From Clostridia bacterium (GTDB lineage Bacteria; Bacillota; Clostridia; Oscillospirales; Acutalibacteraceae): DNA of 60,712 nucleotides. The notes beneath the pieces are model-generated. The model was not told the origin of the DNA. It saw only the letters and a list, made by a program, of their open reading frames with translations, and searched no databases. The stretch is from the NCBI GenBank assembly GCA_017516315.1, contig JAFXDE010000042.1, forward strand, positions 1 through 60,712, in the 5' to 3' direction. Below are positions 33,285 to 49,278 of this stretch, piece after piece. Positions within the stretch are counted from its first letter, which is position 1. The number at the start of each line of letters is the position of its first letter. The position numbers and the translations under genes were made by a program.

Positions 33285-34793
33285 ATGTCAGAAGAAAAGA
33301 ATGTAAATGTACCTCAGCAGGAGGTACAGCAGGACGTTAACGAATTAAGAAAGGTAAGGGTAGACAAGCTCGAAGCTCTTCAGGCAGACGGCAGAGATCC
33401 CTTCGTAATCACTAAGTACGACCAGACTCATCACAGCTTAGAAATCAAGGAAAACTTCGAGGAGCTTGAGGGCAAGACTGTCCGTGTAGCAGGCCGTATG
33501 ATGTCAAAGCGCATTATGGGTAAGGCCTCCTTCTGTAACATTCAGGACCTTAAGGGTAATATCCAGTCCTATGTAGCCCGTGACAGCCTCGGTGAAGACG
33601 AATACAAGGATTTCAAAAAGCTCGACATCGGCGACATTATCGGTATCGAAGGCTCTGTTTTTAAAACCAAAACAGGTGAAATCTCCATCCACGCAGAGAA
33701 GATTACTCTTCTTACCAAATCTCTTCTTCCCCTTCCCGAAAAGTTCCACGGTCTTACAAATACAGACACAAGATACCGTCAGCGTTATGTTGACCTTATT
33801 ATGAACGCAGAGTCAAAGCAGACTCTTATCAACCGTTCAAAGATTATCAGAGAGGTAAGAAATTATCTTGACTCACAGGGCTTCTTAGAGGTAGAAACAC
33901 CTATGCTCGTTTCTAATGCGGGCGGTGCTGCCGCAAGACCCTTCGAAACTCACTTTAACGCTCTCAGTGAGGATTTCAAGCTTCGTATTTCTCTCGAGCT
34001 TTATCTTAAGAGACTTATCGTAGGCGGTCTCGAAAGAGTTTACGAAATCGGTAGAGTTTTCCGTAACGAAGGTCTTGACACCAGACACAACCCCGAGTTC
34101 ACTCTTATGGAGCTTTATCAGGCATACACCGATTACCACGGTATGATGGACCTTACGGAAAATCTTTACCGTCATGTAGCACAGGCTGTTCTCGGTACCA
34201 CTAAGATTGTTTATAACGGTGTAGAAATGGATCTCGGTAAGCCTTTCGAAAGAATCACTATGGTTGACGCTGTTAAAAAGTACACAGGCATCGACTTCTC
34301 CGAAATTAAAACAGACGAGGAAGCTAAGGCTCTGGCTAAGGAAAAGGGTGTAGAGTTCGAGGCAAGACATAAGAGAGGCGACATACTTAATCTCTTCTTT
34401 GAGGAATTTGTCGAGCATCATCTCATTCAGCCTACTTTCCTTATGGACCACCCCGTAGAGATTTCTCCTCTTACAAAGAGAAAGCCCGAAAATCCCGACT
34501 ATGTCGAGCGTTTCGAGTTCTTTATGAACGGCTGGGAAATGGCTAACGCTTATTCCGAGCTTAACGACCCCATCGACCAGAGAGAACGCTTTAAGGCTCA
34601 GGAGGAGCAGCTCGCTCAGGGCGACGAGGAAGCAAATACCACCGACGAAGACTTCCTTTGTGCACTCGAGTACGGTATGGCTCCCACGGGCGGTATCGGC
34701 TTCGGTATCGACAGAATGGTAATGCTTCTCACTGACAGCGCAGCTATCAGAGATGTACTTCTTTTCCCCACAATGAAGTCATTGGATAAATAA
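33285..34793 (+). CDS. lysS: Lysyl-tRNA synthetase, class II
   Basis: A 502-residue enzyme with an N-terminal OB-fold anticodon-binding domain ([26 protein letters not shown]), motif 1 near FLEVETPML, motif 2 [23 protein letters not shown] and motif 3 [14 protein letters not shown]. It ends FPTMKSLDK. The last codons contain a 17-bp sequence repeated at 49262, which marks this 3' end as the attachment site of a mobile element. The coding sequence remains complete because the element brings its own copy of the end. Confidence 0.98.
34765..34781 (+). other. Left attachment core (within lysS)
   Basis: TCCCCACAATGAAGTCA, encoding the PTMKS residues of the LysS C-terminus. Identical copy at 49262-49278. 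Confidence 0.88.
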
Positions 34794-34855
34794 ATCTCCC
34801 AAAATCCCAGTAAAATCAAGGGTTCCGAGAGATGGTAAAATTGTAAACAGTCGGT

Positions 34856-34877
34856 TTTACGACAAATTTACGACAAA
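34856..34877 (+). repeat. Tandem integrase arm-site repeats, left end
   Basis: Two perfect, contiguous copies of TTTACGACAAA (34856-34866, 34867-34877). The same 11-mer occurs just behind the integrase gene at 49135. This is the layout of Tn916 DR2-type arm sites. Confidence 0.78.
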
Positions 34878-34895
34878 TGAATATGTGATATAGCA

Positions 34896-34924
34896 AAGCA
34901 GGACGGCATTTTGCCGTCCTGCTT
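34896..34924. terminator. Strong hairpin between lysS and the anti-sigma gene
   Basis: Perfect 13-bp stem AAGCAGGACGGCA/TGCCGTCCTGCTT with a 3-nt loop. T runs are short on both strands, so termination efficiency is uncertain. Confidence 0.65.
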
Positions 34925-34932
34925 GTTAATAT

Positions 34933-35631
34933 TTATTCTTCTTTAAGTGATTCGCCAACCTTAATTATCTCTTCTCTGTTAAGCTGACCGTAAATTGTAA
35001 CGGTTATCTTGTTACCTGTGATAATCAGAGTTGAATAGGGCTTCCCATCATTTTCACCTGCAACAAGATACGAATCTCTTCCTGAAATAAGAATTTCTTC
35101 AACATTGTTTTTTTCTTTATCGGTATGCACTGCAAGACCGTCATTAAGAGAAACATAAATATCGTAGGAAAGGTTATCCTTTTCGTTTTCGTATCTGTAT
35201 CCGATAGCTTCGTATTCATCGTATTTCTCTTTTAATGTGAAACCTTGAGGAATATATCCGGCAGAAACATTTTCATAATTGCTGAAATCGGCTGATGTTT
35301 CATCGGCTGTGACAAAATAGAACTTGATGTGTGTTTCATAAAATTCCATCACTGCATTTTTAAAATCTGCTCTTGCCTGGGGGCTTATCATTATAAGCGA
35401 AAAAGAACCGATACAAAGCGAGAGAATTATAACAGCCGCTTTGGAAAGGGCGTTCTTGAAAAATGAAACGCTCTTTTCTTTTTTGTCGAAGGATGATACA
35501 AGCTTATCCATCCTCTTTTCAAAGTTTTTGCTAAAGGTATAGTCTATTTCACTGTCAGATGGGATTGAGGAAACATCGTAGTTTTTTACTTTAATCAAGG
35601 CTGAAGCTAACATAGCGTCACTTATTTCCAT
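34933..35631 (-). CDS. Anti-sigma-like membrane protein with DUF4367-type domain
   Basis: A 232-residue protein: about 65 cytosolic residues, one membrane segment (AAVIILSLCIGSFSLIMIS), then an extracytoplasmic domain with YIPQGFTLKEKYDEYEAIGYRYENEKDNLSYDIYVS and a conserved ending like the DUF4367 proteins paired with ECF sigma factors. It overlaps the sigma gene by 14 nt, with AAAGGAG before its start. The expected role is to hold the sigma factor at the membrane until an external signal releases it. The N-terminus has no zinc-finger (ZAS) motif, so sigma binding is inferred from context. Confidence 0.8.
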   Translation of the reverse strand: MEISDAMLASALIKVKNYDVSSIPSDSEIDYTFSKNFEKRMDKLVSSFDKKEKSVSFFKNALSKAAVIILSLCIGSFSLIMISPQARADFKNAVMEFYETHIKFYFVTADETSADFSNYENVSAGYIPQGFTLKEKYDEYEAIGYRYENEKDNLSYDIYVSLNDGLAVHTDKEKNNVEEILISGRDSYLVAGENDGKPYSTLIITGNKITVTIYGQLNREEIIKVGESLKEE

Positions 35632-36172
35632 TGACTTTTGCTCCTTTCATAAGTTCTTCCTTCAGAATCATTCTGCCACGCCGTACCTGTTGGTGTACTG
35701 TACCCGGCTTTCTTCCCAAAAGCTCGGCGATTTCCTTTTCGGTCATCTGCTCTACTATGAGAAGATAGAGCACATCTCTGTAAACGGCGGGCATTGCGGC
35801 AAGAGTTTTAGTTATGAAATCCTCCGCCTCGAATGCTTTGTAAAAAGAACTGCTTTCTTTGTCGCTGACATCGTAAAGCTCGTCAATATCTGTTTCCTGT
35901 ATGCCTTTGCTTTTCCTTAATATATCAATAGCGGCGTTTTTTGCAGCCGTAATGACATAAGAAAGAGTTTTCTGCGAATCTGCATCTTCAATCCTTTTCA
36001 TATTCTTTGCTATGCCGATAAAGGCATTATGTACTGCATCCTCAGCAAGGTGTGAATCGTTCAGAACCGAATTTGCCGAATACCACATTTTCTTTCTGTA
36101 TAAGGTATAGATTTTTTCGAACTTTGCTTTGTCGCTTTCTTCTTCAATAAGAAGAGTATAAAAAACTAACAT
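35618..36172 (-). CDS. ECF-family RNA polymerase sigma factor
   Basis: A 184-residue sigma-70 family protein reduced to sigma2 (FEKIYTLYRKKMWYSANSVLNDSHLAEDAVHNAFIGIAKN...LSYVITAAKNAAIDILRK) and sigma4 (MPAVYRDVLYLLIVEQMTEKEIAELLGRKPGTVHQQVRRGRMILKEEL). GGAG precedes the ATG by 7 nt. It is the first gene of a two-gene operon with its presumed anti-sigma factor, inside a mobile element. A TGTAAC-N17-CGTC promoter upstream is typical of ECF autoregulation, and two other element genes have closely similar promoters. Confidence 0.93.
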   Translation of the reverse strand: MLVFYTLLIEEESDKAKFEKIYTLYRKKMWYSANSVLNDSHLAEDAVHNAFIGIAKNMKRIEDADSQKTLSYVITAAKNAAIDILRKSKGIQETDIDELYDVSDKESSSFYKAFEAEDFITKTLAAMPAVYRDVLYLLIVEQMTEKEIAELLGRKPGTVHQQVRRGRMILKEELMKGAKVNGNK

Positions 36173-36213
36173 ATATTTGCTCCAACCTGTGTTTTTTGAC
36201 GTTCATAATATTA

Positions 36214-36240
36214 GACGGAGGATTTTTATAAAAAGTTACA
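36214..36240 (-). promoter_or_regulatory. ECF-type promoter of the sigma/anti-sigma operon
   Basis: Minus strand TGTAAC (36240-36235), 17-nt spacer, CGTC (36217-36214) followed by TAATATTATGAA. Presumed autoregulated promoter. Confidence 0.78.
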
Positions 36241-36246
36241 CTTTTT

Positions 36247-36273
36247 TGTAAGTTTTATAATTTTTTATCCGTT
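36247..36273 (+). promoter_or_regulatory. ECF-type promoter facing the giant LRR gene
   Basis: TGTAAG (36247-36252), 17-nt spacer, CGTT (36270-36273). It is back-to-back with the sigma operon promoter; the two -35 boxes are 6 bp apart. A direct repeat TTTGACGTTCA (36195-36205, 36290-36300) lies downstream of each promoter. Confidence 0.7.
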
Positions 36274-36423
36274 GATAGTAGTGAAAGCCTTTGACGTTCA
36301 ACCATTGTAACATATATTTGTTTCAAAATTAAGAGGCTCAAGTGAATTCCTTTGAAAGGATGGACTTTATTTATTATGGATGATATAATTATAAAAGAAG
36401 AAAAGAAAAAGGAGGAGAATATT

Positions 36424-39400
36424 ATGGAAAAGACAAAAAGAATAGTCAGCATATTCCTTGTTGTTCTTATGCTCTTTACTTCTCTTCCGATGAATGCTTT
36501 CGCTGAGGAGATTGCCACACAGGAGGAAACTACTGCGGTAAGCGAGGAGATTATAACAGAGGAAGTAACTGCTACCGAAGAAGAAACAAACCCTGAAGAT
36601 ATTACATCCGAAGACGATACTACCGATGCAATCGCTCCTGAGGAGCCGGTTTATGAAATAGGCGAAACCTATATAATAGACGGTGTAAGATACGGTGTAA
36701 GAGAAGACGGGACTGTCGTTGTCTGGGGTGAAGGGGCAGGAATGCCTGAAAAAGTTGAGCTTCTGTCTTACCTTGGTGAATATCCGGTTACGAGTATGGC
36801 AACCTCGGCTTTTGATTATGCAACAAATCTCAAAGAGCTCATTATTCCCGAAACCGTTAAAATCATAAACGGATTAAACAAAACGGGTATAGAAAAAATT
36901 GAAATACGCGGTGATTATGTTTCAATCGGTATTGCAGTTCTCGGTTCTTCACCCTTTTTCAAAAATCAGGACAACTGGAAGGACGGCTTACTTACTGTCG
37001 GAAGCTGTCTTATTGCCGTGAATAAAGAGGGCGAGGTAGTTCTCGGTGAAGAAATAACGTCCGTTGCGCAGCATGCATTCAGATATTATGATAACGTAAT
37101 AGATACTGTTAAGGTTTACAATGAAAACTGCGTTATACCGAAGGTCTCCTCCGTTTTTCCTATGGGTACAAAGCTTTGCGGTAAGGAAGATTCAACCCTG
37201 AAGGAATATTATGAAGCTTTTACCGGTTACAAGTATAAGTTTGAAAAGCTGTGCTTCTGTGAGGATACTGTGACTGTTGAAGAAACATCAACCCTTTGTG
37301 ACGGTACTCTCGGTTACACAAGAGGCGAGTGGTGTGAACAGTGTCAGGTATGGAAGACAGGACACAGAAAAAATGAGACTGTAAGTCATTTCGATGAAAA
37401 CAGTGACAGGATGTGCGATTTCTGCTCATACTCACTTGATAATAATATAATCGACAGCGGTATAGTGGGCGATAATGCCTATTGGAGCTTTGATGAAGAA
37501 GGTACTCTTTTGATTTGCGGACTGGGAGACCTCTATGATTTTACAATGCAGAAGGATGTGGGCTGGTATGATTATAAGGCTCAGATAAAGAAGATTGTTG
37601 TTACTGAGGGAATAGAGCGACTTAGCACCGTCTCTTTCGAAGGCTGTAAGAGCATTGAAAGCATCAGCCTTGCCGATACGGTTGTTTCTCTTCCTTCATC
37701 CTTCCGCAACTGCAGTGAACTTAAATCTGTCAGCCTTTCTGCCTCTCTCAGGTCAATACCCTCCCATTGCTTTTCCGGATGTACGGCTCTGGAAAGCATT
37801 ACTGTTCCCGAAAGTGTAGTGTCAATAGGAAGTTTCGCCTTCGACGGCAGCACATCACTGAAGGAAATAATTTTTGAAAACGGATATATCACTCTTGGCA
37901 GTGATGTTTTTTACGGAACAGCTGCATACAATGATCCGTCCAATATCAGAGACGGCTTCCTTTTTATAAACAACTGTCTTATCAAGGAAATCTCGGCAGA
38001 AAATTCCTCTCTCGTGCTCGGCAGTGAAATAACCTCTATTGCACCTGATTGGTCTGAAGGCGGTCTTAATACCGTGGTTACTGAGCTTACCGTGTATAAT
38101 CCCGAATGCGTTTTTCCCGATTCTTCTGCAGCAGTTCCTTCAGGTGCGGTTTTATACGGACTTCTCGGATCTACAGCGGAGAAGTACAGTAAAACCTTCG
38201 GGAAAAAATTCGTTCCTTTCTGTATCTGCGAGGATACACAGCTTATACCTGAGAATAACGGTCACTGTGACGGAACGGTAGGATATACCGAGGGTGTATG
38301 GTGTGAAAGATGTCAGCTCTGGGTATCAGGCCATGAGGAAAAGCCCGGGTTCATTCATATAGATGAGGATGAAGACCTCATCTGTGATTTTTGTAAGACA
38401 TCCGTTGAAACAGGTATTATGGCTGCAGGTAAATGCGGAGATAATATGTCCTGGCGTATTATGGATGATTATACATTATTCATTGACGGTACCGGTGAAA
38501 TGTATTCCTTTGCCAAAGAATCGGCACCCTGGTATTCATATGCAGAAAACTTAACGGATGCTTTCGTTTCTGACGGTATAACATCTATAGGCGATTATGC
38601 TTTTTATAACTGTAAAAATATCAGATCCGTTGAGCTTTCAAGTGTCCTTCTTAAAATAGGTGCTTATGCTTTTTACGGCTGTGAAAGTCTTATGGAAACT
38701 GATATCCCTGAGGCCGTATACATAATATCGGAAAAGGCATTTTACGGTTGCAGGGAATTGAGGAGCATCGTTATCCCCGAAGCAGTAACAACTCTCGGCA
38801 ACGGAATTTTTACAGGCTGTTCAGGTCTTGAAATTGTTGAAGTCAAAGGAAGCATCACTGCAATTCCCGATTCAATGTTTGCCGATTGCGAAAATCTTGT
38901 TACTTTTGAATCTGCAAAGAATATAAAAAACATTGGCGAAAAATCTTTTTATAACTGTAAAAGCCTCGCTTCTTTTGAAGGCTTTTATGTCCGTACAATG
39001 GGAAAGAATGCATTTGCTTCATGTGAAAGTCTGGTTGAGATCAGAATAAAAAGTATTGATGAATTGCCTGCCAGTGCTTTCAGGGGCTGTAAAAATCTTT
39101 CTGACGTTGCTTTGAGCAGCTCTTTGGAAATAATAGGCACAGCTGCATTTTTAGGCTGCACATCTCTGAAAAGCATTGTTTTGCCCAAAAGCGTGGCTAC
39201 AGTTAACGCAGGTGCTTTCGGCGGTTGTGATAATCTTGAGGAAATAACCTTTATGAATGACAGCGTAAGCATTTCTACAGCTGATGTTGTGACGGGCGGA
39301 GGTACTTACAAAGCTCTGCCGCAGACTGTTACAATCAAAGCAAATGCCGCATCAAAGGCGGATGCTTATGCCGATGTCAATGAGCTTAATTTTGTTCCTC

Positions 39401-42400
39401 TTACGGAAAAAGAAATTTCATCCGTGGTGCTTGCAAAGGAGCCTTCTCAGCTTATCTATGTTATCGGCAAGGACACAGCCTTCAGCAGAAGCGGTGCAAA
39501 AGTCAGGGTTACATATACTGACTCAACATCAATAACTCTTACAAAAAGATTCACCGTTGATTGGAAGGACGCTGATATAAGTAAAAGCGGCACATATACA
39601 TGCTGTGCGGTTTACGGCAGCTATGAATTGCCTTTTGAAATAACTGTTGTTACAGGATATTCTTTCTGCGGCATACCTGAAAACGGAGATTTCGGTGAAA
39701 TCTTCTGCACGAAGAATGAAATTACGGCAGTATGCTTTATTCCTACGGAAACAGGCGAATATACCTTTGCTTTTGACGGAGGTACAGGTCTTGAAATCAC
39801 TGCTGATTCAGGTGTTTCAAAACGTGGAGGTATTAATTTTACGGAAAAATATACCTATGAAGAGGGCAAAGAATATTATTTTTACATAAAATCAACCACA
39901 GCTGACAGAACTGTAAGCTTTAGAAAGACGGAGGATTTTTACTTTGTTACACGTAGTGACGGGACTCTTGAAGTGAAGCTGTGCCTTGCAAGCGGTGATG
40001 TTGTAATTCCGTCAGAATACGGCGGAATACCCGTTACGAAGGTCTCTGACAGCTTCCGCAGTAATTCTTTGCTTAACAATGTGAATTATATGGGCAAGAT
40101 CACTGTTTCAGAGGGTATAAAAGAGATCGGTGAAAGTGCTTTTTATAACCATAAGTATGATATTGTTCTTCCCGAAAGTATCACAAAAATCGGTAAAAAG
40201 GCTTTTGAAGGCTTAAAAGGAAATGTGAACATTCCTTCATCTCTTGAAAATATAGGCGATTATGCTTTTTATAATTCTGCTGTCAGTAATGTCGTTCTTA
40301 CTGAAGGACTTAAAAAGATAGGCAGCTATGCCTTCAGCGGCTGCAATAATATTGAAGCTCTTGAGCTTGAACTGAGCTCTGTAAGCTTCGGAAGCTACAT
40401 TTTTGCTGACTGTACAGGAATAGAAAGTGTCAACATCGGTGAAAATGTAACAAGCCTCGGCAAGTATATGTTCCGTGGCTGTGAGAGTCTTCGGGAGGTC
40501 ACTGGCTGTGACGGTCTCAGAAAAATTTCTGACGGAGTCTTCAGCGGTTGTAAATCCCTTGAAAAAGCAGATTTTATTTCACAGCTTACGGAAATAGGAA
40601 GCTACGCTTTTTATAATTGCACAAAGCTCAGTGAAATAAAACTGAGTGACAGCATTGATAAGATTAAGGACTACAGCTTTTACGGCTGTGATGAAGTGAA
40701 GGAAATTCAAATTCCTCAAGGAGTTACAGAAGTAGGAGAATATGCTTTTTATAATTGCAGCAGTCTTGAAAAAATCACTTTCTCAGGCAATCTGAAAGAA
40801 ATCAGAAGAAATGCATTTTCATACACTGCCATAAGGCAGATAGACTTACCGGACAGCGTGGAAACTATGGAAAGATCATGCTTCAGTTACTGTCGACAGC
40901 TCAGTGAGTTTACTCTTCCTGAAAAAATAACCACTGTGTCTGATTTTACATTCAGTGGTTGCAGTGCTCTTGAGAGGGTTGATGCAAGAGGTTACATAAC
41001 AGAAATTGCCGATTATGCCTTTTCCTATTGTGATTCACTTAAGGAGCTTGGCTTCTGGGACAGCGTTGAAAGGGTTGATATGAATGCCTTTGAGCAGTGC
41101 ACGGCTCTTGAAAATGCGCCCTTTGAAAGTGTGAACTACATTGAGCAGAATGCTTTCAAAAACTGCACGGAGCTTGAAAGTGTCAGTCTGCCTGAGGAGA
41201 ATACCGTTATTGAAGGAAAAGCATTTTACCGCTGTCTGAGTCTTAAGTCTGTCGATATCAAAGCCAACAGCTCAGTCGGAACACAGGCCTTTTACAGCTG
41301 TTCTTCTCTTGAAACGGTTATTGTGGGTGAAAATACATCTCTGAGCAAGGAGGCCTTTGCATATTGCAGTTCACTTAAGGAGCTTTATCTTTTCAATGAA
41401 TTTTCCGCTGAGGACATTGTCGGTTCCTTTGCCGATGGTGCTGTAATTTACGGATATGAGGGAAGCAGTGCACAGCAATATGCCCAGAAGAAGGGCATAG
41501 AATTTATTGCCGTTGAGGGTCACGTACACTCTTACACCGTTACACGGGTAGAGCCTGACAAATGCTTTGAGTATACAAAGCTGATTTATACCTGTGCCTG
41601 CGGTTACAGCTACACCGAAAATGAGCATCTTCCCACAGGTACTCATTACTATGGAGACTTTGTGACAGATAAAGAGCCCACCTGTACCGAGTACGGACTT
41701 AAATCCAGACACTGCCACTGCGGTAAGAACAGAAAAGATATCACGCTTATTGATCCTCTCGGTCACACCGAGGTTATCGACAACCCTGCTGTTGCACCCA
41801 CTGAAACTGAGCCCGGTTACACTCATCAGAGCCATTGCTCCGTCTGTGGTGAAACAGTGGTGAAGCGTGAGCTTATAGGTCACGATGAATATGATATTCT
41901 TGTTGATGACAGTGAAGTTACTGCATATAAATTTAACGCCGCAACTGCTGAAAATGACGGTATGGATCTTGTTATTACTTTTACTACAAGAAACAATGTT
42001 TGTATGAGTAGTATTGATAAAACCGTTATTTATAAGGTCGGTGAAGTAAAGCTTTCAAAAACTGAATTAACTTATAACGGTAAGGTTCAGAAGCCTGTTG
42101 TTACTGTAAAAGACAGTACGGGAGAGCTGTTGACTTTGAACAGAGATTACAGGGTTACATATTCTGCTGATTCAAAATATTGCGGTGAATATAGTGTTAA
42201 GGTTGATTACATCGGTAATTATGCAGGTAACAAGTCTCTTTATTATGATATTGTTCATAATTGGGGTGTAGGTAAAATTACCAAATCTTCCACATGCACA
42301 AAAACAGGTATAAAAACATTCACCTGTGGATGCGGTGCTTCTTATACTGAAACCATTGCAAAACTTAGTCACTTATATTCAAACGCTTGCGATACAACCT

Positions 42401-43323
42401 GTAACAGAAGTGGTTGCGGTGCAAAGAGAAGCATTACTCATAGTTACAAGAATGTAACCACCAAAGCTACGCTCACAAAGAACGGTAATATCCAAAACAA
42501 GTGTTCAGTTTGCGGTAAAGCTTCAAAGACAACAACTATTTACTACCCGAAGACCTTTACTCTTTCAACAACAGCTTATACTTACAATGGTAAGGCGAAA
42601 ACTCCTTCAGTAACCGTTAAGGACTCAAAGGGCAACATCCTTAAGAAGAATACCGACTACACAGTAAGCTATGAAAGTGGAAGAAAAGCACCCGGAAAGT
42701 ATACTGTTAAGATTACTTTTAAGGATAAGTATGAAGGCACAAAGAGACTTTACTTCACTATCGCACCCAAGGCAACAAGCAAGATTACCGCCACTCAGAC
42801 CACTACGGCAATTACTCTTAAGTGGAGCAAGGTGACAGGTGCAGACGGCTACAGAATTTACAGGTACAACACAAAGACAAAGAAGTGGGATACAGTAAAG
42901 AACGTTTCCGCATCAACACTCAGCTACAAAATCAAGGACCTTAAGGCAGGAACAGCCTACAAGTACAGAGTAAGAGCTTACACTAAGGATGACGGTACAA
43001 TCTGGGGTGCATATTCAAGCACATTTGAAACCGCAACAAAGTGCAAGACTCCTTCAATCATCAAACTCACAACAACCAAGGGCACGGCTTCCTATACCTG
43101 GTCAAATGTATCAGGTGAAAGCGGCTATCAGGTTTACTACTCAACCAAGAAAGACAGCGGCTACAAGAAGGTTGCTTCCTATAAGGCAAACACCACAAAG
43201 GGCTCAAAGAGTAAGCTCACAAGTGGCAAGACTTACTACTTCAAGGTTCGTGCTTATAAGAAGGTTGACGGTAAAACAGTTTATGGCTCATTCTCATCTG
43301 TTAAGAGTATAAAAATCAAATAA
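36424..43323 (+). CDS. Giant secreted leucine-rich-repeat (BspA/LRR_5) surface protein
   Basis: A 2299-residue secreted protein. ATG 36424 follows AAAAAGGAGG; an extension from 36352 lacks an RBS. After the signal peptide (RIVSIFLVVLMLFTSLPMNAFA) comes a Glu/Thr-rich linker, then long arrays of LRR_5 units of about 23 residues (pattern IGxYAFYxCxxLxxIxIPxxV). These are interrupted by cysteine-rich zinc-ribbon-like segments (CEDTVTVEETSTLCDGT...CEQCQ) and an Ig-like insert. The C-terminus has more C-x2-C/CG repeats, a repeated YNGKxxxPxVTVKDS module and two fibronectin III domains. No LPXTG motif, S-layer homology or transmembrane anchor is visible. BspA-type proteins usually mediate adhesion; no substrate is suggested. 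It has its own terminator and an ECF-type promoter. Confidence 0.93.
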   Translation: MEKTKRIVSIFLVVLMLFTSLPMNAFAEEIATQEETTAVSEEIITEEVTATEEETNPEDITSEDDTTDAIAPEEPVYEIGETYIIDGVRYGVREDGTVVVWGEGAGMPEKVELLSYLGEYPVTSMATSAFDYATNLKELIIPETVKIINGLNKTGIEKIEIRGDYVSIGIAVLGSSPFFKNQDNWKDGLLTVGSCLIAVNKEGEVVLGEEITSVAQHAFRYYDNVIDTVKVYNENCVIPKVSSVFPMGTKLCGKEDSTLKEYYEAFTGYKYKFEKLCFCEDTVTVEETSTLCDGTLGYTRGEWCEQCQVWKTGHRKNETVSHFDENSDRMCDFCSYSLDNNIIDSGIVGDNAYWSFDEEGTLLICGLGDLYDFTMQKDVGWYDYKAQIKKIVVTEGIERLSTVSFEGCKSIESISLADTVVSLPSSFRNCSELKSVSLSASLRSIPSHCFSGCTALESITVPESVVSIGSFAFDGSTSLKEIIFENGYITLGSDVFYGTAAYNDPSNIRDGFLFINNCLIKEISAENSSLVLGSEITSIAPDWSEGGLNTVVTELTVYNPECVFPDSSAAVPSGAVLYGLLGSTAEKYSKTFGKKFVPFCICEDTQLIPENNGHCDGTVGYTEGVWCERCQLWVSGHEEKPGFIHIDEDEDLICDFCKTSVETGIMAAGKCGDNMSWRIMDDYTLFIDGTGEMYSFAKESAPWYSYAENLTDAFVSDGITSIGDYAFYNCKNIRSVELSSVLLKIGAYAFYGCESLMETDIPEAVYIISEKAFYGCRELRSIVIPEAVTTLGNGIFTGCSGLEIVEVKGSITAIPDSMFADCENLVTFESAKNIKNIGEKSFYNCKSLASFEGFYVRTMGKNAFASCESLVEIRIKSIDELPASAFRGCKNLSDVALSSSLEIIGTAAFLGCTSLKSIVLPKSVATVNAGAFGGCDNLEEITFMNDSVSISTADVVTGGGTYKALPQTVTIKANAASKADAYADVNELNFVPLTEKEISSVVLAKEPSQLIYVIGKDTAFSRSGAKVRVTYTDSTSITLTKRFTVDWKDADISKSGTYTCCAVYGSYELPFEITVVTGYSFCGIPENGDFGEIFCTKNEITAVCFIPTETGEYTFAFDGGTGLEITADSGVSKRGGINFTEKYTYEEGKEYYFYIKSTTADRTVSFRKTEDFYFVTRSDGTLEVKLCLASGDVVIPSEYGGIPVTKVSDSFRSNSLLNNVNYMGKITVSEGIKEIGESAFYNHKYDIVLPESITKIGKKAFEGLKGNVNIPSSLENIGDYAFYNSAVSNVVLTEGLKKIGSYAFSGCNNIEALELELSSVSFGSYIFADCTGIESVNIGENVTSLGKYMFRGCESLREVTGCDGLRKISDGVFSGCKSLEKADFISQLTEIGSYAFYNCTKLSEIKLSDSIDKIKDYSFYGCDEVKEIQIPQGVTEVGEYAFYNCSSLEKITFSGNLKEIRRNAFSYTAIRQIDLPDSVETMERSCFSYCRQLSEFTLPEKITTVSDFTFSGCSALERVDARGYITEIADYAFSYCDSLKELGFWDSVERVDMNAFEQCTALENAPFESVNYIEQNAFKNCTELESVSLPEENTVIEGKAFYRCLSLKSVDIKANSSVGTQAFYSCSSLETVIVGENTSLSKEAFAYCSSLKELYLFNEFSAEDIVGSFADGAVIYGYEGSSAQQYAQKKGIEFIAVEGHVHSYTVTRVEPDKCFEYTKLIYTCACGYSYTENEHLPTGTHYYGDFVTDKEPTCTEYGLKSRHCHCGKNRKDITLIDPLGHTEVIDNPAVAPTETEPGYTHQSHCSVCGETVVKRELIGHDEYDILVDDSEVTAYKFNAATAENDGMDLVITFTTRNNVCMSSIDKTVIYKVGEVKLSKTELTYNGKVQKPVVTVKDSTGELLTLNRDYRVTYSADSKYCGEYSVKVDYIGNYAGNKSLYYDIVHNWGVGKITKSSTCTKTGIKTFTCGCGASYTETIAKLSHLYSNACDTTCNRSGCGAKRSITHSYKNVTTKATLTKNGNIQNKCSVCGKASKTTTIYYPKTFTLSTTAYTYNGKAKTPSVTVKDSKGNILKKNTDYTVSYESGRKAPGKYTVKITFKDKYEGTKRLYFTIAPKATSKITATQTTTAITLKWSKVTGADGYRIYRYNTKTKKWDTVKNVSASTLSYKIKDLKAGTAYKYRVRAYTKDDGTIWGAYSSTFETATKCKTPSIIKLTTTKGTASYTWSNVSGESGYQVYYSTKKDSGYKKVASYKANTTKGSKSKLTSGKTYYFKVRAYKKVDGKTVYGSFSSVKSIKIK

Positions 43324-43330
43324 CACCCGT

Positions 43331-43365
43331 CAGGCTCTCTGAAGCAAACAGAGAGCCTGATTTTT
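43331..43365 (+). terminator. Terminator of the giant LRR gene
   Basis: Perfect 11-bp stem CAGGCTCTCTG/CAGAGAGCCTG, 7-nt loop, then ATTTTT. Confidence 0.92.
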
Positions 43366-43409
43366 ACTTGTGAAAGTACAAAAAGCATCCGTGAAAAAAA
43401 TTATTTTCT

Positions 43410-43436
43410 TGTAAGTTTTTGCCCTTTTCTTTCGTT
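43410..43436 (+). promoter_or_regulatory. ECF-type promoter of the zinc-ribbon membrane protein
   Basis: TGTAAG (43410-43415), 17-nt spacer, CGTT (43433-43436) followed by TAATATTATGAAGG, nearly identical to the sequence downstream of the sigma operon -10 element. Confidence 0.78.
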
Positions 43437-43481
43437 TAATATTATGAAGGACTAATATTATAATAAAAAGGAGAATAAAAA

Positions 43482-44390
43482 ATGGAAGCATTTGAAAATT
43501 TAATGATTTTAATTCCTATTATAAGTATTCTTGAACTTTTATCGATAGTTTTTTCGATACTCTTTATGCACTATTCGGCAAAGCACAGAAATCATCAGCT
43601 TTCCGTAGGCTGGTATATCTGCGGGTTTCTTTTCGGAATATGGACTCTTATAGTATTTCTTATCAAAAGAAAAGATTTCCCCGGCCCCAAAACAAAGGTA
43701 TGTTATCAGTGTGGACGAAAATTCCCTGACAGCTTTCAGATGTGCTCAAACTGTCTTATTGATCTTCCTGTGATTAATGAGGAACAAAAGAAAAAGGATG
43801 GAAAACTCACAAAAATATTCGGAACGGCTGTTATAGTTACAATAGTGGCAGCTCTGATAACAGGTATTCTTTCGGGCTTTCTTTTTGCTAAGGAAATTAT
43901 GGAAGATCCGGATTTCGGCTTTTTAGATGAGGATAACAGAATTGCCGTTGGCGGAGTTTTTTATGACAAAAAGGGAAACAGCTATGACGAGTGGGATAAG
44001 GTTATTCTTTACGATAAGGACAACAGGACCTATACTTATACCATAGAAGAGCCCGAAAATGCGGAGGATGACCTTTTTGCTATTCCTGATTATTACTATA
44101 TCCGTGATGACGGCGAAAAGTATTTCACCTATGATTGCTATGTTTCGGAGGACGGCTGGTTCTATTGCGATAAGGGCGGACTACTGGAGCTTGTGTCGGA
44201 GGATACCTCTGCTATGAGCGAGGAAGAGCTGAACGAATATTACAACAGCTTGTTAGAAGCGGACAGCGAATACAAATATTACGACTATGCTTATAAGGAT
44301 AAGAACGCAAAGATATACTACAGTGCCGATGAAGCCTCCTGGAACGAAAAGGGTGAGCTGATTACGGCTGAAAACGATGTTGTGAAATAA
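43482..44390 (+). CDS. Zinc-ribbon membrane protein with acidic extracytoplasmic domain
   Basis: A 302-residue protein. Two membrane segments (about 8-30 and 42-62) precede a cytosolic zinc ribbon (CYQCGRKFPDSFQMCSNC), a third segment (about 112-135) and a C-terminal domain rich in Asp, Glu and Tyr (DEDNRIAVGGVFYDKKGNSYDEWDKVILYDKDN...). I do not recognise the C-terminal domain. GGAG precedes the ATG. It has its own terminator and an ECF-type promoter like those of the sigma factor and LRR genes, so it is probably part of the same response and may be an assembly or sensing partner of the surface protein. Confidence 0.8.
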   Translation: MEAFENLMILIPIISILELLSIVFSILFMHYSAKHRNHQLSVGWYICGFLFGIWTLIVFLIKRKDFPGPKTKVCYQCGRKFPDSFQMCSNCLIDLPVINEEQKKKDGKLTKIFGTAVIVTIVAALITGILSGFLFAKEIMEDPDFGFLDEDNRIAVGGVFYDKKGNSYDEWDKVILYDKDNRTYTYTIEEPENAEDDLFAIPDYYYIRDDGEKYFTYDCYVSEDGWFYCDKGGLLELVSEDTSAMSEEELNEYYNSLLEADSEYKYYDYAYKDKNAKIYYSADEASWNEKGELITAENDVVK

Positions 44391-44399
44391 CGAAATATT

Positions 44400-44444
44400 A
44401 CCCGTTAAGATTGCAGTCATTCTGCTTTCTTAACGGGTGTTTTT
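44400..44444 (+). terminator. Terminator of the zinc-ribbon protein gene
   Basis: Eleven-bp stem ACCCGTTAAGA/TCTTAACGGGT, with a small GCAG/CTGC hairpin in the loop, then GTTTTT. Confidence 0.88.
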
Positions 44445-44716
44445 GTATGTAAGGAAGGATGTAATAATTCAATAATACTTAATGAAAAAAAGCTTTCATC
44501 GATTTTGTTGCAAACAGCATTAGGGAAAATATAACAATGTGAATAATTCCGTATAAACAAAGGATTTATGCTTTGTTGCGGATATTAATTTTTAGTTGTT
44601 GCGGTATTTTGGGTGATTTTGCAAAAGTGCCCTATTATATAATATAGAGAGATATTTCGATTATATAATAACTGCCCCCACCAATAAAATTTTTGAGAGA
44701 ATAAAATCAGTATTCT

Positions 44717-44894
44717 GGTATATGGATACTGCGTTAGATTTTTATATAATTAAAAATTTTTTCAAAATCAGGAACAATTTTATATATCTAATTCCCATTA
44801 CTATTTAGAGAGATAAATTACATAGCACTCGTCAGTTTTTGACGGGTGTTTTTTTATGCCTAAAAACCTGAATTTCGGTATATGAATACTGCGT
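44717..44894 (+). repeat. Pair of 18-bp direct repeats 160 bp apart
   Basis: GGTATATGGATACTGCGT (44717-44734) and GGTATATGAATACTGCGT (44877-44894) differ at one base and both are followed by a TTTTT tract. They flank a terminator hairpin and lie in the non-coding region before the relaxase gene; an iteron or regulatory role is possible. Confidence 0.65.
44826..44857 (+). terminator. Intrinsic terminator in the non-coding region
   Basis: CACTCGTCA paired with TGACGGGTG (one G-T pair), then nine T. No protein gene is upstream within 380 bp, so it may end a small RNA or read-through transcripts. Confidence 0.75.
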
Positions 44895-44952
44895 CACATT
44901 TTTCGCAGTTAAATATAAACACTGAAAAATAGTTTTAGAAAGGAGTTTTTCA

Positions 44953-45033
44953 ATGACTTAGCACAAATCACAATCTGAGCCAAAAACTCAATATTTGGCT
45001 CAACACAAAATCCAACTGAGCCACAATGGCTCA
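44953..45033 (+). other. ATG-ACT-TAG mini-frame followed by two TGAGCC hairpins
   Basis: AAAGGAG and a good spacer precede ATG ACT TAG (44953-44961), a start codon with a stop two codons later. Next come TGAGCCAAA/TTTGGCTCA (44976-45002) and TGAGCCA/TGGCTCA (45017-45033). They may be operator sites, a leader control device, or a scar of a deleted gene. Confidence 0.5.
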
Positions 45034-45050
45034 AAATGTAGTAAGAGAAG

Positions 45051-45087
45051 ACGACCTTTGAAGTTAATTCTTCAAGGGTCGTTTTTT
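45051..45087 (+). terminator. Strong intrinsic terminator upstream of oriT
   Basis: Thirteen-bp stem ACGACCTTTGAAG/CTTCAAGGGTCGT, 6-nt loop, then a T run. Confidence 0.88.
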
Positions 45088-45210
45088 ATGCCCGAAAATA
45101 TTTTGGGGCTTTTTTGAAAAGTCAGGAACATTTTGTATGCGATTATGTCGTAGATAAGTGAAGGCAATTTTGTCTGACACATAGCGAAGCTCGTCTGCGG
45201 ATTTATCCGA

Positions 45211-45257
45211 ATCAGAAAGATTAACTGCTCCCCTTTGAAGCGGTAAATCTTTCTGAT
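45211..45257. repeat. Twelve-bp inverted repeat beside oriT
   Basis: ATCAGAAAGATT (45211-45222) and AATCTTTCTGAT (45246-45257) are perfect inverted copies; the loop holds a further weak ACTGCT/AGCGGT pairing. A small CGGAT-TT-ATCCG hairpin lies just upstream. It may aid oriT processing. Confidence 0.55.
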
Positions 45258-45302
45258 AAAAGCCTCGCAGAGCCCACTGACATCTTTGCACAGGAATACT
45301 GT

Positions 45303-45331
45303 GAAAGTGTCATAGTGGGTTACGCACTTTC
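45303..45331 (+). other. Predicted oriT of the MobV relaxase
   Basis: The inverted repeat GAAAGTG (45303-45309)/CACTTTC (45325-45331) encloses ATAGTGGGTTA, close to the pMV158-type nick region TAGTG/TGTTA. The expected nick is between 45317 and 45318. It lies 54 nt before the relaxase start, as is usual for MobV systems. Confidence 0.75.
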
Positions 45332-45384: not shown

Positions 45385-46602
45385 ATGTCAAAGAAAAATT
45401 ACAGTGTAGCAAGAGTTGTCACTCATACACAAAGCACAATCGGTAAATGTGAAAGGCACAACGAAAGGAAAAATGAGTCTTACGCAAATATGAATGTTGA
45501 TATGGCTTGCTCTGATATGAATGTTCATTTCAAAAATTGCGGTGAACTGACCTACAACGAACAACTGAATAAACTCATAGCCGAAAAGAAGGTCTGTATG
45601 CGAGGTCTGAAAGCTGATGCAAAGGTCTTTGATGAAATGATATTCGATGTAAACACAGACTACTTTGAAACGCACGGTGGTTATGAATATGCAAAGGATT
45701 TCTATGAGGAAGCATACAGATTTGCGGTTGCCTTGTATGGTGAACAGAATATCATCTCTGCAGTTATGCATGCTGATGAACTGAATGTGGCTCTCACAGA
45801 ACAGTACGGAAAACCGGTGTATCACTATCATATGCATCTTGTAGCTCTGCCTGTTGTCGAAAAGCAAATACTATGGACAAAGCGGTGTAAAGATAAATCT
45901 CTTATAGGTACTGTGAAAGAAACAGTTAATCAGATAAGCCATTCAAAGAAATGGAAATCACCGCAGGCTGTGGATGAAAACGGTAATGTCATATTCAACG
46001 AAAAAGGTAAGCCTGTGTTGATTCCCTCTTACAGTATCTTGCAGGATGATTTCTTCAACCATATGCAAAGAGCCGGTTTCAATGATTTCATCCGTGGCGA
46101 AAAAGGCAGTACGGCTGAACACTTATCTTGTCTGCAATATGAAATACAACAAGACAAAAAGAGGCTTGAGGCAATTAAGAGTCAGGTTGAAAAGGAAGAA
46201 ATTCATTATGACAATATTCATACTATACACAAAACATTTATGGAGATAGACAGTATGGGTAAAAAGTCTATAACGGGTAAGGTTACGGTTTCTGCAAAGG
46301 ATTTTGAAGATTTAAGCACAATGGCAAAGCAATCCGTTGCGGAGAGAAGAAAAATATTTGACCTTGAGTGTGAAAACGAAAGGCTCCGAAAAAGGAATTG
46401 GGAGCTGCAAAGCAGTATAAACAGACTGAGTGCAAGACTTCATGAGCTCGAACAAGTCTGTGCACCGTATCTTGAGGCATTAAGGCTGATGCCTGAAAAA
46501 GTAAAAGCATTTATATCGGATGTGCTGAAAACTGTCCGAAAAGAGAAAGAACAAACAAAATCACAAAATATCAAAACTAAAAAATCTAGTAAAGAAAGGT
46601 AA
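45385..46602 (+). CDS. MobV-family relaxase (plasmid recombination/mobilization protein)
   Basis: A 405-residue DNA relaxase. Motif I is H25-NERKNESYAN, and the metal-binding motif is H129-ADE...VYHYHMH (H147, H149, H151) with the longer insertion known from chromosomal mobilizable elements. The C-terminal third is a coiled coil (about 230-365) and a lysine-rich tail. It nicks oriT and leads the strand into a recipient using another element's secretion channel. AAAGGAGG lies before the ATG, oriT just upstream, and the ParB-like gene follows after 8 nt. Confidence 0.93.
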   Translation: MSKKNYSVARVVTHTQSTIGKCERHNERKNESYANMNVDMACSDMNVHFKNCGELTYNEQLNKLIAEKKVCMRGLKADAKVFDEMIFDVNTDYFETHGGYEYAKDFYEEAYRFAVALYGEQNIISAVMHADELNVALTEQYGKPVYHYHMHLVALPVVEKQILWTKRCKDKSLIGTVKETVNQISHSKKWKSPQAVDENGNVIFNEKGKPVLIPSYSILQDDFFNHMQRAGFNDFIRGEKGSTAEHLSCLQYEIQQDKKRLEAIKSQVEKEEIHYDNIHTIHKTFMEIDSMGKKSITGKVTVSAKDFEDLSTMAKQSVAERRKIFDLECENERLRKRNWELQSSINRLSARLHELEQVCAPYLEALRLMPEKVKAFISDVLKTVRKEKEQTKSQNIKTKKSSKER

Positions 46603-46610
46603 TTTGAATT

Positions 46611-47507
46611 ATGAAAAATTTTGAAAAATTAGTAACAACCATGAGCATATTCACCGATACACTCACACCTCTCACCGAGTCACCCTTTAAAGTCGTTGAT
46701 GACAAGGCTATGAGAGATTTAACCGAAAGCATTAAAAAGTTCGGTATTCTTGAACCTATTACTGTTCGCAAGCCCGATGATACCAAAAGCGGAAAGTTTG
46801 AAATCATCTCCGGCTATCGCAGATGGGAAGCGTGTAAAAATTTAGGTATCACCTCTGTTTCCGTAAGAGTCCTTGATCTTTCAAAGGATGATGCAATCAT
46901 AGCAATGATTGATGCCAACCTTTGTCACCGTGAGCAAATCTTACCGAGTGAAAAAGCTGCCGCATATAAAATGAAACTTGATGCAATGAAAAGGCAGGGT
47001 TACAGAAGTGATTTGGAGACAGAGGGAACTTCTACAACATTGTTGCAGAAGTCAGAAACTTCCATTCAGAAACTTGCTAACGAAAGCGAAGATAACAGAG
47101 AAACTATAAGACAGTATATCCGCCTGACTAACCTCGAAAAGCCGCTTCTTGATCTTGTTGACAGCGGCAGAATGGCATTCCGTCCTGCAGTTGAGCTTTC
47201 GTATTTACTGCCCGCAGAACAGCAGATGGTGCTTGAAACTTATGAAACAGATGAGATAACTCCGTCACTCTCACAGGCACAACGAATCAGAAAACTTTCA
47301 GAGCAAGGCTCACTTGATACTGACAATCTGTTTGAGATTATGACTGAGCCGAAAGCTAATCAGAAACCGACAATAAAGTTCTCTGTTGAACGCTTACAGA
47401 CAGTTGCTCCAAAGGTAAAAGAAAGTGACCTTGAAAATTTTGTTATGAAAGCCTGTGAGCACTATTACAGATACCTTCAACGACAGCGAGATAGAGATGC
47501 GAGGTGA
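46611..47507 (+). CDS. ParB/Spo0J-like DNA-binding protein
   Basis: A 298-residue protein with the ParB N-terminal domain (LTESIKKFGILEPITVRKPD, ISGYRRWEACKNLGI, NLCHREQILPSEKAAAYKMKL) and a helix-turn-helix centre (NRETIRQYIRLTNLEKPLLDLVDSG). No ParA is adjacent. Such solitary ParB proteins are common in Tn916-related and mobilizable elements, where they may regulate element genes or help maintenance after excision. It is coupled to the relaxase gene by 8 nt and to xis by 4 nt. Confidence 0.88.
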   Translation: MKNFEKLVTTMSIFTDTLTPLTESPFKVVDDKAMRDLTESIKKFGILEPITVRKPDDTKSGKFEIISGYRRWEACKNLGITSVSVRVLDLSKDDAIIAMIDANLCHREQILPSEKAAAYKMKLDAMKRQGYRSDLETEGTSTTLLQKSETSIQKLANESEDNRETIRQYIRLTNLEKPLLDLVDSGRMAFRPAVELSYLLPAEQQMVLETYETDEITPSLSQAQRIRKLSEQGSLDTDNLFEIMTEPKANQKPTIKFSVERLQTVAPKVKESDLENFVMKACEHYYRYLQRQRDRDAR

Positions 47508-47511
47508 TTAG

Positions 47512-47781
47512 ATGTATAAATTATATTTACTGTACAGATTTATAAAAGAATCTTTTACAATTGTGCTTAACAGCACTTGCGGTGAGTGTGAGATTCCCGT
47601 ATGGGAAAAATACACCTTATCTATTGAAGAAGCTGCTGAGTATTTTCGCATAGGTGAAAATAAACTCCGCAATATTATCAATAAAGATAAGTTTGCAGAG
47701 TTCATTCTGTGGAATGGTAACAGAGCACAGATTAAGCGAAAGATTTTCGAAAAGTATATTGATAAATTAAGCTTTATCTAA
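47512..47781 (+). CDS. xis: Excisionase (Tn916 Xis-like)
   Basis: An 89-residue small DNA-binding protein. From residue 29 on it matches Tn916 Xis: [51 protein letters not shown]. The first 28 residues are an extension not found in that family, so the true start may be further in, though AGGTGAT lies before ATG 47512. It bends attachment DNA and steers Int toward excision. Confidence 0.88.
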
Positions 47782-47864: not shown

Positions 47865-49133
47865 ATGTCAGAAAAAAGACGTGATAAAAAAGGCAGGCTG
47901 TTATGGAACGGTGAAAGCCAAAGGAAAGACGGCAAGTACGAATATAAATATGTGGATGCCAAAGGTGTCAGACACTCTGCTTACAGTTGGAAACTAGTAG
48001 ATACAGATAAAGTTCCTGCGGGTAAGAGATGTGATATAAGTCTTCGTGAAATGGAAAAGCAGATACAGCGAGATATTGAAGACGGTATTAAATCTTATGA
48101 ATCGAAGCGTATCACATTGAACGACTTTTGGCAGATGTATATTGATATGAAATACGAGCTTAAGCAGTCCACCCGTACCAATTACAAGTATATGTACACA
48201 AAGTATGTGGCGGATGATTTGGGACTAAAGAATATATCTTCAATAAAATACAGTGATATCAAGAAGTTTTATATTTCTCTTATAAGAGAGCGAGGATTTC
48301 AACCCAACAGTATCGAGAATATAAATACCATTCTGCACCCCGTTTTCTCCATGGCGGTGAGAGACGGTTATATCCGTGTCAATCCGTCTTCAGGAGTGAT
48401 GGCTGAAATTAAAAAGAGCCATAACTGGGAGAAAAATAAGAGACACGCACTCACGGTTGCAGAGCAAGAGGCATTCGTTAATTTTCTCTCTAGCTCATAT
48501 ATGTACAGAAGATGGTTGCCTTTGTTTACTGTTTTCTTAGGTACGGGTTGCCGTGTGGGTGAGATTATCGGTCTACGGTGGGAAGATTGCGATTTTGAAG
48601 ATGGCATCATCAGCATTAATCATAATCTTATATACCGACAGCAGGACAGCGGCAGATGTGAGTACCATATCACTACACCTAAAACCAAATCAGGTGAAAG
48701 AATCGTACCAATGCTGACCGAAGTTAGAGAAGCACTCCTGAAAGAACGAGAATATCAGGAGATCGAAGGCTTTAATGAAACTGTTATTGACGGATATACA
48801 GGCTTTATCTTTAAAAACAGATTCGGTAATGTTCATTCACCAATGGGTATAAACAGAGTTATTGATCGCATTGTGAAAGAGCATAATAAGCAAGAGAAGC
48901 AGCTTGTTGAAAAAGAGGGGAGAGAGCCACTCATTATACCTCACTTTTCGGTTCATAATCTTCGTCATACCTTCTGCACAAGATTTTGTGAGAACGAAAC
49001 CAATATCAAAATCATTCAGGAGATTATGGGGCATGCTGATATTACGACAACTATGGATATTTACAACGAAGCAACCAAAGAGAAGAAAAAAGAATCATTT
49101 GCAGGACTCGAGGGTAAAATTAAAGTCTGCTGA
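47865..49133 (+). CDS. int: Tyrosine recombinase/integrase of the Tn916 family
   Basis: A 422-residue integrase. The N-terminal arm-binding domain (MSEKRRDKKGRLLWNGESQRKDGKYEYKYVD...SWKLVDTDKVPAGKR) is strikingly like Tn916 Int. The core-binding SAM-like domain follows, then the catalytic domain with R230 (TGCRVGE), a lysine in TPKTKSGE, H364-NLR367-HT, H390 (GHADI) and nucleophile Y400. AAGGAGG precedes the ATG. Arm-type TTTACGACAAA repeats begin 2 nt after its stop codon, and the attachment core lies 129 nt further on, as expected of the integrase for this element. Confidence 0.97.
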   Translation: MSEKRRDKKGRLLWNGESQRKDGKYEYKYVDAKGVRHSAYSWKLVDTDKVPAGKRCDISLREMEKQIQRDIEDGIKSYESKRITLNDFWQMYIDMKYELKQSTRTNYKYMYTKYVADDLGLKNISSIKYSDIKKFYISLIRERGFQPNSIENINTILHPVFSMAVRDGYIRVNPSSGVMAEIKKSHNWEKNKRHALTVAEQEAFVNFLSSSYMYRRWLPLFTVFLGTGCRVGEIIGLRWEDCDFEDGIISINHNLIYRQQDSGRCEYHITTPKTKSGERIVPMLTEVREALLKEREYQEIEGFNETVIDGYTGFIFKNRFGNVHSPMGINRVIDRIVKEHNKQEKQLVEKEGREPLIIPHFSVHNLRHTFCTRFCENETNIKIIQEIMGHADITTTMDIYNEATKEKKKESFAGLEGKIKVC

Positions 49134-49261: not shown

Positions 49262-49278
49262 TCCCCACAATGAAGTCA
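49262..49278 (+). other. Right attachment core (displaced lysS end)
   Basis: TCCCCACAATGAAGTCA identical to 34765-34781. It continues as a frame that would encode PTMKSLDK and stop (TAA 49288-49290), the same residues as the end of LysS with synonymous differences. Confidence 0.88.

Follow-up and report, generated by a model that had tools for sequence, protein, structure and literature searches.

A mobilizable element in lysS of a Clostridia bacterium that very probably carries its own ECF sigma factor regulon

Contig JAFXDE010000042.1 of a Clostridia bacterium (60,712 bp, the whole stretch analyzed and hereafter the window; contig C50 of genome G000, which comprises 2.06 Mb in 57 contigs and is 82% complete) contains a 14.5-kb element integrated at the 3' end of lysS. 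We consider it highly probable that this is an integrative mobilizable element with a self-contained extracytoplasmic function (ECF) sigma regulon as cargo, in agreement with a preliminary description of the same DNA. The element borders, the gene families, the co-inheritance of sigma factor and promoters, and the conservation of the promoters all come from sequence comparison. The genes and predicted promoters of the regulon are the following.

34933..35631, minus strand: putative anti-sigma factor, DUF4367 (PF14285, 2.1e-12), with one predicted transmembrane segment at about residues 61-86 (hydropathy)
35618..36172, minus strand: ECF-type sigma factor whose domains are sigma2 and sigma4 alone (PF04542 and PF08281, each over cut-off)
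36214..36240, minus strand: predicted ECF promoter of the sigma/anti-sigma operon, here TGTAAC-N17-CGTC; a site at this place in all 11 orthologous loci
36247..36273, plus strand: predicted ECF promoter of the giant leucine-rich repeat (LRR) gene, here TGTAAG-N17-CGTT; a site at this place in all 11 orthologous loci
36424..43323, plus strand: giant BspA-type LRR protein of 2299 aa, with a signal-like N-terminus and fn3 near the C-terminus
43410..43436, plus strand: predicted ECF promoter of the zinc-ribbon gene, TGTAAG-N17-CGTT, with the same site before the orthologous gene of genome G002
43482..44390, plus strand: zinc-ribbon-like membrane protein, CxxC...CxxC, without a Pfam match at 0.001

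The three TGTAAS-N17-CGTY sites recognized in the preliminary description were found again at these coordinates and on these strands, all with a 17-nt spacer. They are the only matches to the pattern in the window, compared to a mean of 0.37 in shuffled sequences (three or more in 2 of 100 shuffles). The agreement reported downstream of the sigma operon site and the zinc-ribbon site also stands, with TAATATTATGAA present after both. Whether matches in the genome are limited to the element, a check suggested in the preliminary description, depends on the form of the motif. The loose pattern TGTAAS-N17-CGTY matches 23 times in the genome of the window, including the three element sites, compared to 13 times in a reversed control, and therefore cannot define a regulon. 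However, TTTT after the -35 box is common to all three sites, and the tighter motif TGTAAS-TTTT-N13-CGTY matches the three element sites alone (control, 0). With one mismatch allowed, this motif gives six additional matches, compared to 5 in the control. Our site model R1 returned exactly the three element sites at E <= 0.1.

The boxes themselves mostly differ from AAC/CGTC, named in the preliminary description as the usual ECF promoter pattern. TGTAAG and CGTT each occur in 21 of the 22 divergent sites of the 11 orthologous loci, and the sigma site of the window (TGTAAC, CGTC) is the exception. Upstream of the sigma gene, the -35 box is TGTAAG rather than AAC in 10 of 11 loci, and CGT is present at -10 in all 11.

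Comparison across genomes ties these sites to the sigma gene. Among 34 genomes of the genus, five others carry an ortholog of the sigma factor (82-87% identity; the next-best matches have 42-43%), and the tight motif has 17 matches, in exactly the six ortholog-carrying genomes and in none of the remaining 28. Twelve of these matches are the paired sites between the divergent sigma and LRR genes, three lie ahead of the gene that follows the LRR gene (a zinc-ribbon gene in G000 and G002, a gene of about 500 aa in G009), and two lie elsewhere; G012 has a weaker third site, ahead of a 500-aa gene. The 11 orthologous loci include the window; ten orthologous loci come from metagenome-assembled genomes of Clostridia or Oscillospiraceae, and for the eight of those ten with a stated source this is the gut of goat, deer, sheep or water buffalo. 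Both divergent sites, with 17-nt spacers and facing their genes, are present in all 11, which comprise the six loci of the genus genomes and those of five additional orthologs of 74-84% identity (G108, G370, L176, L177, L178). Since the search pattern fixed the 17-nt spacer and most of the box letters, the 11-locus alignment shows that each locus has its sites rather than free conservation of the boxes. Mean identity over the divergent sites is 76-78% in the inner spacer compared to 98-100% in the boxes, the latter figure depending in part on that pattern. The two -35 boxes are separated by 6 bp in eight loci and by 14-15 bp in three (L070, L071, L074).

The sites could also be recovered outside the set from which the motif was built. 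A weight matrix made from 14 sites in six loci recovered 10 of 10 sites in five new loci (L135, L136, L176, L177, L178). We ran R1, for which G108, G370 and G427 were out of sample, over 28 genomes, with at most 150 first-look candidates scored per genome. Each of the nine carriers of the ortholog gave at least two sites at 31 bits or more, whereas the 19 non-carriers reached at most 18.1 bits. Both the matrix and R1 match their own training sites by construction; the L176 and L177 sites were used to train R1 and not the matrix, and L178 and G427:C130 are apparently one record (identical length and scores). R1 also gave matches of 18-22 bits outside the module in carriers G370, G427, G018 and G012. 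One site, on G002:C66 (L100), was set aside as chance, as it lacks the downstream box and scores 12.1 compared to 28.2-42.1 in training sites. Another, on G018:C67 (L101, position 4701), scores 27.9, or 20 bits with R1, and lies inside a long LRR open reading frame (ORF). Taken together, the tracking of the sigma ortholog by the sites, their presence in 11 of 11 loci and their out-of-sample recovery strongly support the reading of the three sites as promoters used by the ECF sigma factor that the element encodes, in line with the shared ECF-type regulon of the preliminary description. We infer the dependence on sigma from this pattern.

The sigma factor itself is a protein of 184 aa with region 2 at residues 22-89 and region 4 at residues 121-168, without a match to region 3. 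The part of PMC8103513 available to us lists sigma2 and sigma4 domains only, with a short linker, as features of ECF (group IV) sigma factors, and the window's protein, with regions 2 and 4 alone, fits this domain composition. It scores 82.9 bits against TIGR02937 (sigma70-ECF; cut-off 42.9), and a profile of its orthologs matches SigW in the PDB at 1e-9. The DUF4367 ORF overlaps the end of the sigma gene, and the sigma-DUF4367 pair is kept in 11 of 11 loci.

We propose that the membrane-anchored DUF4367 protein would hold the element-encoded sigma factor until an outside signal frees it. The freed sigma factor would then transcribe its own operon, giving positive feedback, as well as the giant LRR gene that diverges from it and, farther downstream, the zinc-ribbon gene, all three from TGTAAS-TTTT-N13-CGTY promoters. 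The predicted transcription starts lie near 36204-36206 (minus strand), 36281-36283 (plus strand) and 43444-43446 (plus strand). A conserved housekeeping-type promoter directed toward the sigma operon would provide a basal level. Matches to housekeeping promoters were seen ahead of both the sigma operon and the LRR gene, with counts based on the ten loci that extend far enough (L073 ends too early).

36304..36314, minus strand: predicted housekeeping extended -10 element TATGTTACAAT toward the sigma operon; TATGYTANAAT in 10 of 10 loci
36361..36389, plus strand: possible housekeeping promoter of the LRR gene, TGGACT-N17-TATAAT; similar in 7 of 10 loci

Release of sigma by a signal is suggested by the adjacent DUF4367 protein with its one transmembrane segment together with general knowledge of ECF systems. 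The anti-sigma function of that protein and the surface location of the LRR protein are likewise inferred.

Several observations weigh against this model. The third site is not general, since beyond G000 and G002 it occurs only in G009, where it precedes another gene, and weakly in G012. Weak R1 matches (E 0.007-0.09) are found in 11 of the 19 non-carriers. The tight motif is unspecific when taken alone: 46 of 394 family genomes without the ortholog share 48 matches, for which reason we regard single matches as background. In that scan of 398 genomes, 50 had a match, and the four carriers had 3-4 matches each (13 in total). A structure prediction for the anti-sigma factor reached a predicted local distance difference test score of 38.6 and was not used, and no paper naming DUF4367 was found in the literature searched. 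The CGTY-type site was found upstream of none of 23 distant sigma homologs (34-45% identity), and two plasmid-borne homologs, described below, have no such site upstream. Upstream of nine of the 23 distant homologs, TGTAAC or TGTAAT is separated from TGTY by 17 nt (by 18 nt in one case), and a similar box, RTGAR, follows; this TGTY form was defined after viewing the sequences and is missing in the other 14. The -35 and downstream boxes may thus be shared by a wider group of sigma factors that uses another -10 box.

A rival possibility is that another ECF sigma factor of the host, for example a paralog of 39% identity on contig C8, reads the sites instead of the element's own. In the window's genome Sigma70_r4_2 is matched 17 times at E <= 0.001, with 15 matches over the cut-off, and the site preceding the C8 paralog, TGTAAC-N17-TGTC, has a nearly identical -35 box. 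However, the nine paralogs with a site have TGTY and not CGTT as the -10 box, and paralogs of 38-42% identity occur in six non-carriers (G001, G003, G006, G010, G015, G021), none of which has the tight motif, making this explanation quite unlikely. We give somewhat less credence still to the possibility that TTACA-N6-TGTAA is a palindromic operator for a DNA-binding regulator and its resemblance to ECF promoters accidental. The two -35 boxes do form an inverted repeat 6 bp apart in eight of 11 loci, but a fixed dimer site would not permit the gap of 14-15 bp in L070, L071 and L074. In addition, all 22 divergent sites come with CGTY at 17 nt and a downstream box, and the third site is solitary and in a single orientation. 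That the three sites are chance matches in AT-rich DNA is barely conceivable. The loose pattern is common enough (23 matches compared to 13), but chance would not explain sites retained in 11 of 11 loci despite drifting spacers and recovered out of sample, and it is contradicted by the co-occurrence of the tight motif, the weight-matrix recovery and the R1 scan.

Beside these comparisons, TGTAAC-N17-TGTY sites were observed at a set of sister sigma genes, L133 (G000:C8:3550-4038), L068, L069, L134, L048 and L049. Near the predicted mRNA start of L068, L069 and L133 there is a palindrome-like GAAAGG-A-CCTTTC, possibly a 5' hairpin, which is shorter or imperfect in L134, L048 and L049.

The mobile nature of the DNA that carries the regulon, claimed in the preliminary description, was confirmed by direct repeats, by uninterrupted lysS flanks in relatives and by gene content. 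The borders and the backbone genes are as follows.

34765..34781, plus strand: attL, left direct repeat TCCCCACAATGAAGTCA, within the lysS 3' end; exact 17-bp repeat of 49262-49278
45385..46602, plus strand: MobV-type relaxase (PF01076, 4.4e-38, over cut-off; NCBIfam MobV, 8.7e-19, below its cut-off)
46611..47507, plus strand: ParB-family protein (PF02195, 2.2e-14)
47512..47781, plus strand: Tn916-type excisionase, Xis (PF09035, 3.5e-22)
47865..49133, plus strand: Tn916-type tyrosine integrase, Int (PF02920, 4.6e-28; PF00589, 1.4e-26)
49262..49278, plus strand: attR, right direct repeat TCCCCACAATGAAGTCA, followed by the chromosomal lysS flank

The element thus spans 34765-49278, and the end of the 17-bp repeat is 12 bp short of the end of the lysS stop codon. 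By eye, DNA to the right of the second repeat resembles the 3' flank of lysS that is uninterrupted in relatives including G002, G003, G010, G013 and G014. Of 25 other lysS loci found, 15 were viewed; the repeat motif is present in 10 of these and absent from 5. G015 has a comparable left end after lysS, and related integrases adjoin lysS-like ends in G002 and G015. Eight genes lie between the repeats (DUF4367, ECF-type sigma, BspA-type LRR, zinc-ribbon-like membrane protein, MobV, ParB, Xis and Int). The remaining ORFs of at least 80 aa overlap these genes or their promoters, and we saw no room for a type IV secretion system between the borders. On the evidence of Int, Xis, the 17-bp repeats, the uninterrupted flanks and the MobV-type relaxase, this is an integrated mobilizable element whose excision and transfer are predicted. 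It is classed as mobilizable and not conjugative because a MobV-type relaxase is present alone, with no conjugation genes seen.

Some further features of the element and its surroundings were observed. About 1 kb of noncoding DNA ahead of the relaxase (44400-45385) has inverted repeats by eye and is a candidate region for the origin of transfer. An Rfam scan of the element gave a single match, to a microRNA family, with E 0.17 and far below threshold. Another element, L199 on G015:C22, encodes a 95% identical integrase, lies on the contig of lysS with a lysS-like end beside the integrase, and differs in its ParB (46%) and its cargo. Elements in lysS may accordingly form a family whose cargo can be swapped. 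Outside the window's element, positions 49616-56391 contain a gene of histidine-kinase type with seven N-terminal transmembrane segments, a 434-aa gene, a LuxR-type response regulator and then a second, smaller LRR gene; genes related to the first three, with 82-95% identity, lie past the integrase in G015:C17.

The sigma/LRR module looks like captured cargo rather than part of the core of the element, because relatives mostly carry the module without element genes nearby. Stretches of 5.6-20.6 kb from nine other orthologous loci, some of them cut short by contig ends, showed nothing related to the integrase, relaxase, ParB or Xis of the window. Some of ten neighboring genes scanned against Pfam are housekeeping genes (V-type ATPase, anaerobic ribonucleotide reductase, Lon). 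G002 has element genes on C38 and the sigma gene on C44, without the element's left end. G018 and G108, which belong to two genera, are sisters in the tree with 100/100 support, as might be expected if the module has been transferred. Apparently the regulation of the cargo travels together with it.

The main cargo gene most likely starts at 36424 and not at the TTG at 36352, because GGAGGAG is followed by ATG and then by a stretch resembling a signal peptide. Domain matches of the longer reading from 36376 are to PF13306 (3.1e-187) and PF00041 (1.3e-10). Given the signal-like N-terminus and the lack of an LPXTG-type end by eye, the LRR protein is probably secreted or loosely surface-bound. For the zinc-ribbon protein, double-zinc-ribbon matches are weak (best 0.0037) and were obtained in all ten family members scanned, including the window's own, with four invariant cysteines; a comparison with a phage collection gave no match. 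A different family, orf500 (471-503 aa, 46-98% identity), lies near the LRR gene in seven relatives (for example L070:12840-14342 and L071:5483-6991) and not in the window's element. None of its six scanned members has a Pfam match at 0.001, the single weak match being to Peptidase_M28 (0.15).

The leaders of the divergent sigma and LRR mRNAs contain two pairs of complementary segments, and the co-variation of one pair is new here.

36167..36183, minus strand: segment B, spanning the sigma gene's ribosome-binding site and first two codons; complementary to B'
36196..36205, minus strand: segment A, TGAACGTCAA, where the sigma mRNA is predicted to begin; complement of A'
36291..36300, plus strand: segment A' of the LRR leader, TTGACGTTCA; co-varies with A
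36308..36324, plus strand: segment B' of the LRR leader, TAACATATATTTGTTTC; complement of the start region of the sigma gene (B)

As DNA, TTGACGTTCA is present at both 36196-36205 and 36291-36300, and as RNA, TGAACGTCA at the predicted start of the sigma mRNA and TGACGTTCA of the LRR leader are complementary. The following shuffle and permutation tests carry no correction for relatedness. Over 11 loci, 91.8% of the 110 cells of the A/A' alignment are paired and 5 of 10 pairs show two-sided changes, either value being reached in 0 of 500 shuffles; of the five measures used, four were reached in 0 of 500 and one, further pair types, in 32 of 500. Because 7 of 11 loci have A.C as the tenth pair, the firm helix has nine pairs. 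This nine-pair core has four two-sided pairs, and its cells comprise 94 Watson-Crick, 3 G.U, 0 A.C and 2 other. Matches within loci number 76 of 88, compared to a cross-locus mean of 64.3, a difference reached in 0 of 50,000 permutations. At least five branches of the tree carry two-sided changes (window, L074, L176, L177, and L136 with L178); the tree is nearly star-like, with two of eight inner branches well supported. For B/B', 94.7% of 170 cells in ten loci are paired (134 Watson-Crick, 27 G.U); the unpaired cells include 2 A.C, both in L177, where pairing ends early. Its covariation is weak, with one two-sided pair and a score reached by 174 of 500 shuffles. The predicted energy of the leader duplex is modestly better than in shuffles (for every one of ten loci, 1-9 of 100 shuffles were as low), and averages -26.0 kcal/mol within loci compared to -23.7 kcal/mol across loci (permutation p 0.005). 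No conserved fold of note was found in the LRR leader in nine loci (L071 and L073 excluded).

The co-varying A and A' suggest either pairing between the two leader RNAs or a duplicated operator. One interpretation is that the LRR mRNA made by the sigma factor pairs with the sigma mRNA and damps its translation, as an RNA brake travelling with the module. We hold this tentatively, as a rather unlikely proposal, and lowered our estimate slightly on account of the A.C mismatches at the tenth A pair and in L177. Alternatively, and with the same doubt or very slightly less, A and A' could be two DNA copies of an operator for some regulator, not RNA partners. Consistent with this, the segments are direct repeats 95 bp apart in the window, lie by eye at near-fixed distances from both promoters, and cease to pair at nine where the tenth pair is A.C. 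The order of A-B and A'-B', the same in both RNAs, excludes one continuous A+B duplex and is awkward for a single simple RNA duplex. However, the operator interpretation has to account for two-sided changes on at least five branches, albeit of a poorly resolved tree, and for a nine-pair core in which G.U is rare and A.C absent. No common regulator gene besides the sigma and anti-sigma genes was noticed in the annotated stretches, in which no systematic search was made. Another possibility, namely that two sigma transcripts simply share one 5' end sequence, seen as A and A', suits several loci by eye, but was rejected because an insertion in L071 shifts the housekeeping promoter away while A' is kept.

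The cnr genes sit on plasmid pMOL28, and CnrYX is an anti-sigma complex. For cnrYXHCBAT of Cupriavidus metallidurans, the available text of PMC9045368 describes the ECF sigma factor CnrH, the promoters cnrYp and cnrCp, and a housekeeping promoter for basal expression. With cnr there is a precedent for an ECF regulon carried by mobile DNA. The window resembles cnr, as far as that text goes, in being a horizontally acquired unit with its own ECF sigma factor, sigma-dependent promoters and a housekeeping basal promoter, the last two being predicted in our case. In the window, the sigma gene, the putative anti-sigma gene and the three predicted promoters all lie within 34765-49278, and motif and sigma gene are co-inherited; the promoters would depend on this sigma factor. 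The two differ in that cnr specifies proteobacterial nickel efflux, whereas the window holds a mobilizable element of a Clostridia gut bacterium with a DUF4367 anti-sigma factor, a giant LRR protein and a different promoter motif. The 3' ends of lysS are likewise known targets: the available text of PMC4701971 describes streptococcal integrative and conjugative elements with a tyrosine integrase inserted in the lysS 3' end, one of which has the last 17 bp of lysS as its direct repeat. The window shares the integrase type and the insertion site with those elements as described there, and a direct repeat of 17 bp with one of them, but its repeat stops 12 bp short of the lysS stop codon's end, and it has only a MobV-type relaxase, no conjugation genes seen, and other cargo. 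Plasmids of Clostridioides difficile (CP103805.1) and Vescimonas fastidiosa (NZ_AP023417.1) encode homologs of the sigma factor (39% and 32% identity) with a DUF4367 gene directly after; these pairs differ in that none of the genes named within 6 kb is an LRR gene and the upstream site was not found. We found no paper joining the terms "ECF sigma factor" and "integrative and mobilizable element" in the literature searched, whereas BspA, leucine-rich repeat and ECF sigma occur jointly in two reviews.

Cargo that brings its own sigma factor and promoters needs no wiring into the regulation of a new host. Such self-regulated cargo may aid a mobile element in moving surface-protein genes among gut bacteria. 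The comparison also yields a promoter code for the subfamily of sigma factors encoded next to DUF4367 proteins. If the complementarity of the leaders reflects RNA pairing, the module would place an RNA brake inside an ECF feedback loop.

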